From an uncultured Pseudomonadota bacterium (GTDB taxonomy: Bacteria; Pseudomonadota; Gammaproteobacteria; Ga0077536): a stretch of 64,000 nt of DNA. A model generated the notes under the pieces. That model did no database searches. It was not told where the DNA came from and saw only the letters and a list, made by a program, of their open reading frames with translations. This document shows, piece by piece, positions 3,467-43,263 of this stretch. The stretch's first letter is position 1; every line of letters begins with the position of its first letter. The stretch spans positions 1 to 64,000 of the forward strand of contig CAIKBL010000069.1 in assembly GCA_903825645.1 (NCBI GenBank). The letters run 5' to 3'. A program made the position numbers and the translations under genes.

Positions 3467-3825
3467 TGGTGGAGGCGGCGGGAATCGAACCCGCGTCCGC
3501 AAGCCCTCTGCCGTCGGTTCTACATGTGTATCCGGTCTATTGTTTTAACCGTGCGCCACCCGACAGGCAGGGAAAACGCACAGCGAGCCCGTGAGTTTTA
3601 GCGAGTTGGCGCCGGGCACGCCGCGTCGCGATCCGGTGAGATATGACGCCCGAAACCTGAACGCACCAGCACGGCTTCAGTCGGACGGCACCCTACTGGG
3701 TTTTAAGCAGCGAGTGCGTAGTTGTCGTCGTTGGCAACTAATAGATTGCAGATGGATTTACGAGGTAACTGCGCCTCGACATGCCCCTTCGGTTTCGCGA
3801 CCCACGTCGAATCCAAGTCGCCCCC
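3467..3825 (-). ncRNA. ssrA: tmRNA (SsrA)
   Basis: The 5' end reads GGGGGCGACTTGGATTCGAC and the 3' end closes a tRNA-like acceptor ending in CCA at 3467, with GGTTCGATTCCCGCC as the T arm. The internal reading frame (3703-3735) encodes the tag ANDDNYALAA followed by TAA. Length is about 359 nt, normal for a one-piece tmRNA. It rescues stalled ribosomes and tags the incomplete peptide for proteolysis. The 3' end faces a prophage remnant, as often occurs because phages integrate at ssrA. Confidence 0.97.
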
Positions 3826-3838
3826 AAAGTCAGCGGTC

Positions 3839-3868
3839 AGCATACGCGCATCGACTGGTTCAGCGCAA
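3839..3868 (-). promoter_or_regulatory. Probable sigma-70 promoter of ssrA
   Basis: On the minus strand TTGCGC (3868-3863) and TATGCT (3844-3839) are separated by 18 bp. The -10 ends 13 nt before the tmRNA 5' end, slightly long but acceptable. Confidence 0.5.
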
Positions 3869-4690
3869 CGCGAAACCTCACGAACTGTTGAATACGGTCG
3901 CGTGTCCGGATAAAAAAACAAGTCGATGAACGATTCGAAGGCGATAGATTATTGCCATAATCACCGCGTATGCGACCGGTGACGCGCGGACCCCGAAAAA
4001 ATGTGTAAGCGGCCTCGAACATGGCGCAGCCGACGGCGGTAAAGACAGGCACGACAGCCGCCTCGGCGAGGCATCTTTTTCTCCGAGCTGCGCGGCTTTT
4101 TGCGAAGAGCAAGTCATTACGGGCGAGGATTCTCCGCCGCCGTTCGCTGAATGGTATAGCGATGGGCCTCAGCGGCGTCGCAATGAATGCGGACTCATCG
4201 CCCTGATCCTTAAGCGATCTTTTTTGGCCACACGACTTCGATGATCGAGACCCGTCGCTGTGCTAAAAAGCAGGCGTGCATGGGGATCTCGTTATCGATT
4301 TTCTTTGACTGTGAAAGCTCAATTCGGAAGTTGTCCGCACCGGTCAGGACGCCGGAGACACCATGTTTTACGTCCCGATTTGGTTGTCTGAACCCCACGG
4401 ACTGCGCGCCGCCTGAACTGGCGATGTCAGACCGTCAGCGGAAGCCGGCACCCCCGTCTTGCCTGAGATCGCCTCATCGTCGTCTTACGACTTCTCTCGA
4501 AGCGGTGGAACCCACAAAAGAGGCGCGGCGTTTCTATTCGATTTCGCTAAAGGAAGACAGAGAGGCGAGGTTGTGGGTTCCCGCGCGATTGGTTTTAGGG
4601 AAGGCAGGACGTTTTGACTACGTTTTGGCGCCCTCCTGTGCGATTTGTGCGCAGCGCGATATTGTTCGTCCTTCCGCCGGTCCCGAAGAG
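3869..4690. other. About 0.8 kb without a convincing gene between ssrA and 6S RNA
   Basis: Frames here are short and lack a recognisable family. The best candidate is a 62-residue minus-strand frame at 4210-4398 (…ACFLAQRRVSIIEVVWPKK), which ends cleanly but has no known homologue I can name. A perfect 11-bp inverted repeat, GGAACCCACAA at 4507-4517 and its complement at 4571-4581, encloses 53 nt. The fau (ygfA) gene that follows 6S RNA in many gammaproteobacteria is not here. Confidence 0.5.
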
Positions 4691-38680: not shown

Positions 38681-39475
38681 TTAGGCAAACTGGGCGAGGA
38701 ACCCGCGCAAATCGCGATTGAAGTCTGACGGTTTTTCAAGCTGGCAGAAGTGCCCGACGTCAGCGTAGATCTTTATTTTCGCGTTGGGGATATGGTCGGC
38801 GAGTATCTGGTTAAGCGCCACGGTCGTTGCGCCATCTTCGGTGCCTGCGATGATCAGCGTCGGCTGCTGGATGTCCTTCAGCCGGTCGGTGATGTTCCAG
38901 TTGAACGGGCCCTGTGGATCCGTCGCGCTCGCAAAGAAAACCTGTTCGCTGAAGTTTGTCGGGGTCCGAAAGCAGCCTTCCAAGAAGGCAAGAACCTCGG
39001 GTCGTTCGGCTTTGGTTTTAGCTGCGACGGACGCGTTGAGTAGACCGCCAAAAACCGCTCGCCAATCCTTCTGCATCGCTTCTGCCGCTGCGGGATCCAT
39101 CGTGGCGGCCATGTTGGTCGCACTGCTGAGGATCAGATTGCCCAGCACTCTTTGCGGGTAATCCAGGCTGGTTTGCATTGCAATCATCCCACCGATTGAG
39201 TTCCCGACGAGCACGGCACGCTCGATTCCGGCATCATCGAGAATGGCCGCAACGTCTGCCGCATTTTCGCTGATCGCGTAGCCGCTGGCAGGTTTGTCGG
39301 ACAACCCGTGGCCTCGGTGATCGACCACCAGACAGCGGTGCGTTTGTGAAAATTCAAACAGCTGGTTGGACCAGATGTAGCGGTTGGTTGTCCACGGATG
39401 GAGAAAGACGATCGGCAAACCTTGGCCGAAACTTTCGTAATAGACGTTGACACCTTTGCGATGGATGGTGGGCAT
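38681..39475 (-). CDS. Alpha/beta-fold hydrolase
   Basis: A 264-residue hydrolase with the nucleophile elbow GNSIGG (Ser93), Asp214 in IIAGTEDGATT and His242 in DVGHFCQLE. The FLHPWTTNRYIW segment holds the oxyanion region (HPW). It resembles 3-oxoadipate enol-lactonase and related ester or lactone hydrolases. In this island it is the natural candidate to open a lactone formed by the Baeyer-Villiger enzyme. It is divergent from the thioredoxin-fold gene. Confidence 0.85.
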   Translation of the reverse strand: MPTIHRKGVNVYYESFGQGLPIVFLHPWTTNRYIWSNQLFEFSQTHRCLVVDHRGHGLSDKPASGYAISENAADVAAILDDAGIERAVLVGNSIGGMIAMQTSLDYPQRVLGNLILSSATNMAATMDPAAAEAMQKDWRAVFGGLLNASVAAKTKAERPEVLAFLEGCFRTPTNFSEQVFFASATDPQGPFNWNITDRLKDIQQPTLIIAGTEDGATTVALNQILADHIPNAKIKIYADVGHFCQLEKPSDFNRDLRGFLAQFA

Positions 39476-39605
39476 GGCAGATTAACCTCTTAACAGGATT
39501 AGATTGAACAGGCGTCTCCGATGATAACGGACATCACCCCGCCTGAAACAGGTGGCCCCTAACTCTGGCTATACTGTGCGCAAGCCCGTAGATGAGGAAT
39601 CAACG

Positions 39606-41045
39606 ATGTCGATTTCCCCGGAACTGTCTGACGGCCTGGTCGCCGTGGTCAAGCAAGACTGTCCCACTTGTCTTTTGGTGGACCCGGTCCTGCAAGAAAT
39701 AGAGCGTGCGGGGCTTGGGCTCACCGTGTGTGTCCAGGATGATCTGGATTTTTCGAAGGCGACGCGCATCCTTGATGATCGCAATCTGGAACATTCTTTT
39801 GGCCTAGGCATCGAAACTGTCCCTACCCTGCTTCGAATGGCGGCAGGTCGTGAGGTGGGTCGTGTCGTCGGCTGGGACCGCAAGGCATGGGCGGCGCTTT
39901 GCGGTATGGCGACGTTAGGCGAGGGTCTTCCCGCGTATCGACCTGGGTGCGGATCGAAATCTGTAGAGCCCGGGATTGTTGAGCAACTGGCCGTTCGTTT
40001 CGGCGATGTGGGGATGCAGGCACGTCGGATAGCGGTACCACCCCTCGAGGACGACATCGAACTTTGTTTCGACCGTGGCTGGAGCGATGGCTTGCCGCTG
40101 GTCCCGCCTACCGAAGTACGGGTCTATCGCATGCTGCAGGGGACGCGCCGGCCACCCGGCGAAATTCTCGGACTCGTGCCGCCCAACTTGTCGCCCTGCA
40201 CCATTGAAAAAGTCGCCATCAATGCGGTGATGGCGGGCTGCAAGCCCGAATATCTTCCCGTTGTGATCGGCGCCGTTGAGGCGGCGCTCGATCCCGTTTT
40301 TTGCCTGCACGGGTTGCTTGCCACGACTTGGTTTTCCGCCCCCATGATCATTGTTAACGGACCTGTGCGGGAGCGCATTGGCATGAATTGGCGCGGGAAT
40401 GTGCTCGGCCAGGGTAATCGCGCGAACGCGACCATCGGCCGCGCCCTGCAATTGGTGGTCCGTAATGTCGGTGGTGGTCGTCCCCAAGAGGCGGACCAGT
40501 CAACCTTCGGAACCCCCGCTAAATACACCTTTTGTTTTGCCGAGGATGAGGCGACCTCGTGGGAGACACTGGCCGAAACGCGCGGTTTCGACCGGGCGCA
40601 ATCCTGTGTGACCCTCTTCAGCGCAGATGGCCCGCTCGGCTGTGCCGATCAGAAATCCCGCGAGCCTGCAGCGCTGATCTATTCCTTGGCCGGGAGCTTA
40701 CGAGCGGTGACGCATGTCGACGTGGCCAATGCGGCCGATGCGGTGGTCGTCATCGGCCCTGAGCACGGCCGCGTTTTCGATGCGGCGGGTTGGCGAAAGG
40801 AAGAGGTTCTCCAGGCCTTGCATTCAGCGCTGCACATCGCGGGTGTCGATCTGGGCATGGGCACGGATGCTGCGGCGCCAGTCGTGCAGGCGGGCGCCAA
40901 AAGCACACGACCGAAATTCAGACCCGAGGGGTTGACACTGGTCCGCGCAGGCGGCGAGGCCGGTCTTTTTTCCGCTATCATTCCGGGATGGTTGATGAAG
41001 GGATCGCTTGGTACAGATCCCGTCAGCAAGGAGATTACGCCATGA
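39606..41045 (+). CDS. Thioredoxin-fold protein paired with the UGSC selenoprotein
   Basis: A 479-residue protein with an N-terminal thioredoxin-like domain (CPTC at residues 18-21 counted from ATG 39606; cis-Pro in TVPTLLR) and a large C-terminal domain of unknown fold containing GWSDGLPLVPPTE, NRANATIGRAL and FSADGPLGCADQKS. ATG 39606, preceded by GAGGAATC, is preferred to the longer frame from 39552. Its stop codon overlaps the start of the selenoprotein (ATGA), so the two are translated together. I infer that it reduces, or works in a complex with, the selenoprotein. No cofactor-binding motif is recognised in the C-terminal domain. Confidence 0.8.
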   Translation: MSISPELSDGLVAVVKQDCPTCLLVDPVLQEIERAGLGLTVCVQDDLDFSKATRILDDRNLEHSFGLGIETVPTLLRMAAGREVGRVVGWDRKAWAALCGMATLGEGLPAYRPGCGSKSVEPGIVEQLAVRFGDVGMQARRIAVPPLEDDIELCFDRGWSDGLPLVPPTEVRVYRMLQGTRRPPGEILGLVPPNLSPCTIEKVAINAVMAGCKPEYLPVVIGAVEAALDPVFCLHGLLATTWFSAPMIIVNGPVRERIGMNWRGNVLGQGNRANATIGRALQLVVRNVGGGRPQEADQSTFGTPAKYTFCFAEDEATSWETLAETRGFDRAQSCVTLFSADGPLGCADQKSREPAALIYSLAGSLRAVTHVDVANAADAVVVIGPEHGRVFDAAGWRKEEVLQALHSALHIAGVDLGMGTDAAAPVVQAGAKSTRPKFRPEGLTLVRAGGEAGLFSAIIPGWLMKGSLGTDPVSKEITP

Positions 41046-41560
41046 CTTCAATTTTACTCGATCCGACGGGGGAGCTTGACCCAGTCAAAAGGTTGCCACG
41101 GCGTAAGCCGGCAAGCCTCGCCAATCTGACGGTGGCACTGCTCGATATATCAAAGTCGCGAGGAGACGTGTTCCTGAATCGTCTCGATGAGCTGTTTAAA
41201 GCGCAGGGCATTCGGACCCGACGCTATAAGAAACCGACCTTTACGCGCCCTGCGCCGGTTGCGTTGCTGCAGGCAATCGCTAGCCAATGCGATGTGGTGG
41301 TGGAAGGGCTGGCCGACTGAGGCTCTTGTACGTCGTGCAGTTTGCATGACATCAAGGAGCTCGACAGTCGCGGAATCCCGGGCGGTTTTGTCGCCTCTGA
41401 TGTTTTCCGCACGGCCGCGCAGTCGCAGGGGGACGCCTTTGGTTTTCATCCTGATGCCCTGTTCGTCGCACATCCCATCCAAGATCGCACCGACGCGGAG
41501 CTCTGCAGACTCGCGGAAAACGCCTTCGAGGCCGTTCGGGCGCTGGTTTGTACGGAGTGA
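41042..41560 (+). CDS. UGSC-family selenoprotein (in-frame UGA read as selenocysteine)
   Basis: ATG 41042 opens a frame that meets UGA at 41318-41320 after 92 codons, then continues without another stop to UGA 41558-41560, giving 172 residues with selenocysteine at position 93. The residues around it read EGLAD-U-GSCTSCSLHD: the UGSC motif for which the family is named, followed by a CxxC. The downstream 79 residues (IPGGFVASDVF, FGFHPDALFVAHPIQD, LAENAFEAV) are clearly coding and lack their own ribosome binding site. A SECIS-like hairpin sits at 41332-41350. The family is known mainly from marine and environmental selenoproteomes; the reaction is unknown, probably thiol or selenol redox. A Sec-insertion system must be encoded elsewhere. 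Confidence 0.88.
41332..41350 (+). promoter_or_regulatory. Bacterial SECIS element
   Basis: GTCGTGCA (41332-41339) pairs with TGCATGAC (41343-41350) over 8 bp with one G-U, leaving the apical loop GUU. The loop starts 20 nt after the UGA codon. Bacterial SECIS elements need a stem-loop with a G in the first two loop positions about 16-37 nt after UGA, so this fits well. Confidence 0.75.
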
Positions 41561-42003: not shown

Positions 42004-43263
42004 ATGACAGCCACTGCGTCGCCGATAAAAAAAATGCTTTCCAATGTGAAGGTACTCGATTTCACCCAGTGGCTTGCCGGCCCTGCCGCGACCCGGCTGT
42101 TCGCCGATTTCGGTGCAGAAGTCATCAAAATCGAACGCACTCCAGATGGGGACAATGGGCGCAAGATTCATTTTGTCGCACCGGGGATCAGTGGATTTTT
42201 TCTCGCGGCCTGCGCCGGCAAGAAGAGCCTGGCCGTGGAATTTCGGAGTGACCAAGGGCGCGCGCTCATCCACGAACTGGTTCGTCAGACGGACGTTGTC
42301 ATCGAAAACTATAGCCCCGGAGTGATGGCTAAATACGGATTCGATTACGCGACCCTCAAGGAAATTAATCCCAAGCTCATCATGTGTTCGATTTCGGGTT
42401 TCGGCCAGGAGGGGCCATACGCCAATTTTACGAGCTTCGACATCATCGCCCAGGCGCAAAGCGGGGTGATGTCAATGACGGGTGATCCGGATGGCCCTCC
42501 CCAGTATGTCGGTAATTATTTCGGGGATCCGAATGCCGGCGTTCACGCTGCCGTCGCGATTTGCGCCGCGCTTTATCACCGTGCGTTACATGGTGAAGGA
42601 CAATACATTGATGTCTCACAGCTGGAGTCACTGGTTTATCTCGACTACATCAATTTCCCCCTTTCCATGATGACGGGCGGTCGTTTGACTCCGAAGCGCT
42701 TTGGCGGCGATTTTTTCTCGATCTGTCCCTACGGTGTTTATCGTTCTAAGGAAGGCTATATCGTTTTCGCGGTTGCCGAACATCAGTGGGGCCAATTAGT
42801 TCGCGCCATGGGTATGCCAGAATTGGAGACAGATGAGCGATATGCGACTCAGGTGGCGCGATGTGCCCGCCGTCCCGAGGTGCGCGCCTATATTGAGGCG
42901 TGGTTACAGACTTTTCCGGACGATGCCACCCCGCTTCGCCTGCTCGCGGAAGCGCGAGTTCCTTCCGCTCCAATCCTTGATATCGATCAGGTGCCGGAAC
43001 ATCCACAAATCAAGGCACGTCATCTTTTCCAAGACTTGCCACACCCCGAACTCGGTACGACCCCGGTCGCGCGTTCCCCTTTCCAGCTCTCGTCGATGGA
43101 GATGTCGATCCCCTTCCGGGCGCCCTATCTCGGTGAGCACAACGAGGAGATCCTGCAAGAGCGCCTAGGCTTCAGCTCGACGAAGCTTGCGGCACTCTAT
43201 GCCGAAGGGGTGATCGTCCAGGATAAACAGGTCAAGGTTCTCCGCGACGCGGGAAAACTCTGA
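42004..43263 (+). CDS. Class III CoA-transferase (CaiB/BaiF family)
   Basis: A 419-residue protein with LDFTQWLAGPAATRLFADFGAEVIKIE at the N-terminus and the catalytic Asp175 in NYFGDPNAGVHAAVAI, matching formyl-CoA transferase-like CaiB/BaiF enzymes that move CoA between carboxylic acids. AAAGGAACC precedes the ATG. In the island it would activate the acid released after ring opening. The true CoA donor and acceptor are unknown. Confidence 0.9.
   Translation: MTATASPIKKMLSNVKVLDFTQWLAGPAATRLFADFGAEVIKIERTPDGDNGRKIHFVAPGISGFFLAACAGKKSLAVEFRSDQGRALIHELVRQTDVVIENYSPGVMAKYGFDYATLKEINPKLIMCSISGFGQEGPYANFTSFDIIAQAQSGVMSMTGDPDGPPQYVGNYFGDPNAGVHAAVAICAALYHRALHGEGQYIDVSQLESLVYLDYINFPLSMMTGGRLTPKRFGGDFFSICPYGVYRSKEGYIVFAVAEHQWGQLVRAMGMPELETDERYATQVARCARRPEVRAYIEAWLQTFPDDATPLRLLAEARVPSAPILDIDQVPEHPQIKARHLFQDLPHPELGTTPVARSPFQLSSMEMSIPFRAPYLGEHNEEILQERLGFSSTKLAALYAEGVIVQDKQVKVLRDAGKL

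Follow-up and report, generated by a model that had tools for sequence, protein, structure and literature searches.

The window analysed here, a stretch of 64,000 nucleotides from an uncultured gammaproteobacterium, carries two overlapping genes on its forward strand. The first, which we call the partner gene (39552-41045), encodes a thioredoxin-like N-terminal domain followed by a partner domain. The second (41042-41560) is a UGSC selenoprotein gene, whose ATG overlaps the stop codon of the partner (ATGA) and which has the sequence AAGGAG 8 bases upstream of that ATG, at 41028-41033. The pair is flanked by an alpha/beta hydrolase gene on the reverse strand (38681-39475) and a CoA-transferase family III gene on the forward strand (42004-43263), neither of which was shown to belong to the system.

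Reading frame, recoded UGA and SECIS hairpin

The UGSC frame consists of the ATG at 41042, 91 codons, a UGA at 41318-41320, 79 codons and a stop codon at 41558-41560. Standard gene callers stop at this UGA and report a 92-residue protein, as the initial annotation had stated, and its proposal that the frame is read through the UGA as selenocysteine (Sec) gave the translation that it had claimed, namely 172 residues in which the UGA is residue 93 and opens the motif UGSCTSC (UxxCxxC) within the peptide EGLADUGSCTSCSLHD. The assignment to the UGSC family was likewise borne out, with a score of 115.9 bits against Pfam PF24696 (cut-off 25) in a profile search. Against NCBIfam NF041046 (UGSC_fam), and with Cys typed in place of Sec, the window protein scored 123 bits, just below (by 2 bits) the cut-off of 125. 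It shares motif, length and Sec/Cys exchange with this already known family, of which it is a new member; in its own subfamily the upstream partner bears a thioredoxin-like domain.

Homologues lacking any residue at the UGA position had been named as evidence that would speak against selenocysteine. We found Cys or UGA at this position: Cys in relatives from loci that were gathered using a Cys pattern, and UGA in 14 orthologues close to the window gene. Of 278 related genomes surveyed, 32 were positive, and their UGSC matches contained an in-frame TGA. Among the 14 orthologues pN/pS was ∼0.2-0.4 both before and after the UGA, indicating equal purifying selection on both sides. The open frame of 79 codons downstream of the UGA was present as described, but by itself is weak evidence because the DNA is GC-rich; the homology is strong evidence. 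The accompanying statement that this downstream part has no start of its own does not hold literally, since a TTG lies in frame at 41342. This codon falls inside the hairpin described below and has no visible ribosome-binding site, and homologues are one continuous protein across the region. No relative was detected in the viral contigs searched.

The hairpin (41332-41350, forward strand) reads GTCGTGCA-GTT-TGCATGAC, and its coordinates agree with those given initially. Its 8-bp stem has a 5' arm at 41332-41339, which starts at the 12th base past the UGA, and a 3' arm at 41343-41350, with the loop GUU at 41340-41342 (+20); a lower stem pairs 41321-41327 with 41355-41361. Of sequences recoded at random with synonymous codons, 2.5% had all 8 pairs and 0.3% a folding energy no higher than that of the natural sequence, and the hairpin is therefore beyond what chance would be expected to give. 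Seven to eight of the 8 pairs are retained in 24 distinct Sec genes; Cys homologues encoding nearly the same peptide retain 4-7 (mean 5.6). Pair 7 is C-G in some Sec genes and G-C in others, alongside replacement of the second downstream Cys by Trp, an exchange that rests on few independent events. The Ser codon of the loop is AGT in all Sec genes and a different codon in Cys genes.

Absence of selB and tRNA-Sec, the other observation named as speaking against recoding, was not what we found: the genome, which is 99.5% complete, holds selA, selB, tRNA-Sec (selC) and selD. The tRNA-Sec and selB genes are directly adjacent on the contig of the window; selA lies a short way upstream of them, and another contig holds selD. 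The same genome has a second UGSC selenoprotein gene (C69:107908-108411; L013, about 3776-4425, minus strand) of a different subfamily (UGSCTSW), which is ∼6 kb from selA-selB-selC and is adjoined by its own partner gene. Because the machinery genes, the Cys/UGA homologues, selection, hairpin conservation and the recoding test all agree, we read UGA 41318 as Sec; the sequence evidence confirms 41042-41560 as a genuine UGSC selenoprotein gene, which would be decoded at a bacterial SECIS by the usual SelA/B/C/D machinery.

Among 96 UGSC proteins placed in a tree, the window protein falls within a Sec clade from its own bacterial family, whose sister clade carries Cys and comes from Alphaproteobacteria, Burkholderiales, Gammaproteobacteria and Bacteroidota. 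The deeper branching order is unsure because the branches are long. Some UGSC homologues belong to Methanobacteriaceae. UGA-type and Cys-type UGSC genes were observed together on one Myxococcales contig (L069). One genome of the same family as the window (G403, 62% complete) contains 12 UGSC genes (e.g. L170, L171), and an in-frame TGA is present in every one. Those that were read, four in number, are all fusions with the partner domain, and at least three of them begin with signal-peptide-like stretches, which suggests that they may be exported selenoproteins. Another homologue (L172, G277:C6) has Cys at the usual site and a later in-frame TGA. We considered and dropped a relocated Sec in this genome, as the copy with the second in-frame UGA appears frameshifted; it is probably decayed or a sequencing error.

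The partner gene and the genomic neighbourhood

The thioredoxin-like domain of the partner contains CPTC at 39660-39671, the partner domain spans ∼40044-41042, and an alternative ATG start is present at 39606. The partner protein had no match in the copies of Pfam or NCBIfam that were searched, and therefore none to PF09338 (GrdE/PrdA-type family). In a separate PF09338 search of five UGSC genomes there was also no match, and the controls gave none either. Of 86 loci, 85 have a relative of the main partner domain next to UGSC; 22 loci encode UGSC and partner fused into one protein, and 26, including the window, have the thioredoxin-like N-terminal domain on the partner. The partner gene of UGSC is thus near-obligate. 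Conserved features of the partner are a CxxC (CPTC in the window) and a VPT motif in the thioredoxin-like domain and a PGCGSK motif, and the partner domain has near-invariant residues, among them Cys230, Asn292, Arg297, Asp315 and His405 as numbered from the GTG at 39552. The domain was found in both bacteria and archaea.

The initial annotation regarded the location of the gene in a catabolic island as informative. This view fared poorly: the island says little about function, since its synteny is mostly absent in relatives. The partner-UGSC pair is always retained in relatives of the window genome, but its flanks match as a block only in one (G398, where the alpha/beta hydrolase also lies beside the pair), and in the other relatives unrelated genes such as lptD and rlmL adjoin it. 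The unit is therefore the pair and not the island. A CoA-transferase III gene is near UGSC in 19 loci, but we discounted these neighbours because the family has 26-28 matches in the window genome.

In 11 loci from several subfamilies a thioredoxin reductase gene (CxxC motif) lies no more than 8 kb from UGSC, against ∼0.6 expected if such genes occur, at a rough estimate, twice per 5 Mb. Since near relatives are among these loci, they represent about seven independent cases. The reductase is fused to thioredoxin in two loci. Five candidates were tested against TIGR01292, and L052, L033, L064 and L092 exceeded its cut-off, with the partial L030 below it. The window locus and most other loci have no thioredoxin reductase nearby. 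The informative context of UGSC is its partner, the thioredoxin domain and thioredoxin reductase.

Related operons also contain DctA (C4-dicarboxylate symporter), TctC (tripartite tricarboxylate receptors), GntR regulators, TRAP and short-chain fatty acid transporters, BKACE (beta-keto acid cleavage enzyme), 3-hydroxyacyl-CoA dehydrogenase and MmgE/PrpD, the figures for such neighbours being descriptive counts without a genome-wide background. These neighbours fit the import of organic acids and their CoA-linked breakdown, but they are variable and therefore no substrate can be named. BKACE and 3-hydroxyacyl-CoA dehydrogenase were seen near UGSC in L036, L038, L039, L040, L047 and L094 (Bacteroidota and a Bacillota genome), and four Bacteroidota loci carrying these genes also have a relative of aconitase X.

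Predicted fold and remote homology

UGSC has been listed among thioredoxin-fold redox proteins (PMC2398784, PMC13188914), and a thioredoxin order of elements was put forward for it in 2008 (PMC2398784). The AF2 model of the window protein (pLDDT 92) is built of five beta/alpha units in alternation, the Sec sitting where the third helix begins, and does not follow the thioredoxin order beta-alpha-beta-alpha-beta-beta-alpha; the predicted fold thus contradicts the published assumption. The best structural matches of the model were to common flavodoxin-like and Rossmann-like folds. As the flavodoxin-like fold is common, the fold by itself is uninformative. Foldseek and VIA searches with a fused model gave matches mostly on the UGSC half, and a PDB sequence search returned nothing convincing for UGSC, the partner or the PrdB-like proteins considered below.

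Profile comparison was more revealing. The UGSC profile aligned with the C-terminal Sec domain of clostridial GrdB at a probability of 95.8% (hhalign, E 6.7e-9), the two Sec residues coinciding, as do both Cys of UxxCxxC. Masking the motif left a probability of 75-86%, against 17-26% for the best of 38 decoy families in the same set-up. Comparison with PrdB-like selenoproteins from the bacterial family of the window gave 67-80%, where the best decoy reached 17% with a 17-sequence alignment (A6) and 35% with a 67-sequence alignment (A2), and reversed sequences 0.1%. UGSC showed no profile similarity to the thioredoxin-like domain (0.3%), and the partner showed none detectable to GrdE (0.2%) or to GrdB. 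At the profile-profile level, UGSC is therefore a distant homologue of the Sec domain of GrdB and PrdB, of glycine reductase and D-proline reductase respectively. PrdB-like selenoproteins themselves (L140-L169; UPxC, mostly UGA) occur frequently among members of the bacterial family to which the window belongs, and none was found in the window genome.

The likeness to GrdB (glycine/sarcosine/betaine reductase, PF07355) extends to UxxCxxC with Sec, a similar profile around and after it, and a link to thioredoxin. In contrast to GrdB, UGSC is one short domain, has a partner that is not GrdE-like and occurs also in non-clostridial bacteria and haloarchaea; the window UGSC has no direct match to PF07355 or TIGR04483, and PF07355 had no match anywhere in the window genome. 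PrdB (D-proline reductase, TIGR04483) and the PrdB-like proteins share with UGSC the Sec in register, UxxC and a similar profile, but PrdB differs in its flanking sequence, and the UGSC partner has no PF09338 match. A UGSC/Unknown_1 fusion, in which UGSC is joined to a domain of unknown function, is described in the GOS survey (PMC2398784). What the present analysis adds is the partner gene, the link to thioredoxin and the relationship to GrdB, none of which we found stated in the literature searched.

Proposed role of the pair

We suggest that UGSC and the adjacent partner most likely form a reductase of two subunits. In this scheme the partner would hold a small organic-acid or acyl substrate in position, and attack on the substrate by the selenolate of the UGSC Sec would reductively break a carbon-heteroatom bond. 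The Sec would thereby become oxidised and pair with Cys96 (or Cys99), the CPTC thioredoxin-like domain fused to the partner would re-reduce it, and the reducing power would come from NADPH through thioredoxin reductase. Here we infer that the two proteins form a complex, that the chemistry is nucleophilic and reductive, which path the electrons take and what class of substrate is used; biochemical data on UGSC were not found in the literature searched. The most likely role is that of a selenol reductase that acts on a small organic acid and is driven by thioredoxin, its chemistry and substrate being inferred. To the joint reading, that of a genuine UGSC selenoprotein, distantly homologous to GrdB/PrdB, which acts with its partner as a thioredoxin-driven two-subunit reductase, we assign a probability of about 0.5. 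GrdB-like proteins have been tied to fluoroacetate reduction (PMC10838667), which suggests by analogy that this kind of protein can take substrates other than amino acids. Against the joint reading, the partner lacks similarity to GrdE, though GrdE is the glycine reductase subunit that is paired with GrdB.

UGSC might instead be a general thiol-selenol peroxidase or disulfide reductase with an antioxidant role, and the partner a regulator or scaffold. UxxC, the thioredoxin fusion and the thioredoxin reductase neighbours would suit any thioredoxin-fed redox enzyme, and the published grouping with thioredoxin-fold redox proteins (PMC2398784, PMC13188914) points the same way. We nevertheless consider this unlikely, given a predicted fold that is not thioredoxin-like, the lack of profile similarity to the thioredoxin-like domain, the near-obligate partner, and the acid transporters and CoA enzymes in several related operons. 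Somewhat more doubtful is that the partner catalyses alone and UGSC is a redox carrier or a selenium/thiol transfer subunit, comparable to GrdA in glycine reductase. UGSC is indeed small, and the partner is large with its near-invariant residues, but the similarity is to GrdB, the substrate-binding subunit (in a comparison that did not include GrdA), and in the subfamily of the window the partner already has the carrier, thioredoxin, fused to it.

An Mmp7-like reading of UGSC, with a metal, is improbable. The top VIA-align match of the UGSC model was 8s7v_H (Z 12.3, rmsd 2.8, 129 residues), which from its chain size we take to be Mmp7, and the Methanobacteriaceae homologues would agree with such a reading, but a de novo protein reached Z 11.0 and many unrelated Rossmann-like folds 9-10, so that the arrangement is a common one. 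That UGA 41318 is a true stop, leaving a 92-residue fragment or reflecting a sequencing error, is what standard gene callers imply, but is very improbable and already contradicted by the UGA in 14 orthologues, the equal selection on its two sides, the retained SECIS and the full Sec machinery.

Returning to the two-subunit reductase, we propose tentatively that UGSC and its partner may constitute a separate, widespread class of thioredoxin-driven reductases that combines a GrdB-type Sec/Cys domain with an unrelated substrate subunit. As part of the same possible extension, the class would be found in many bacteria and haloarchaea, beyond the amino-acid-fermenting anaerobes. The locus is an example of a gene that standard annotation would truncate. 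Taken together, the partner gene, the link to thioredoxin and the domain of GrdB type would turn a protein of unknown function into a two-protein system that is open to expression and assay. With the GrdB-type reading its function becomes testable, and Cys-type operons, such as those of Methylobacterium and Bradyrhizobium, permit such tests without selenium.
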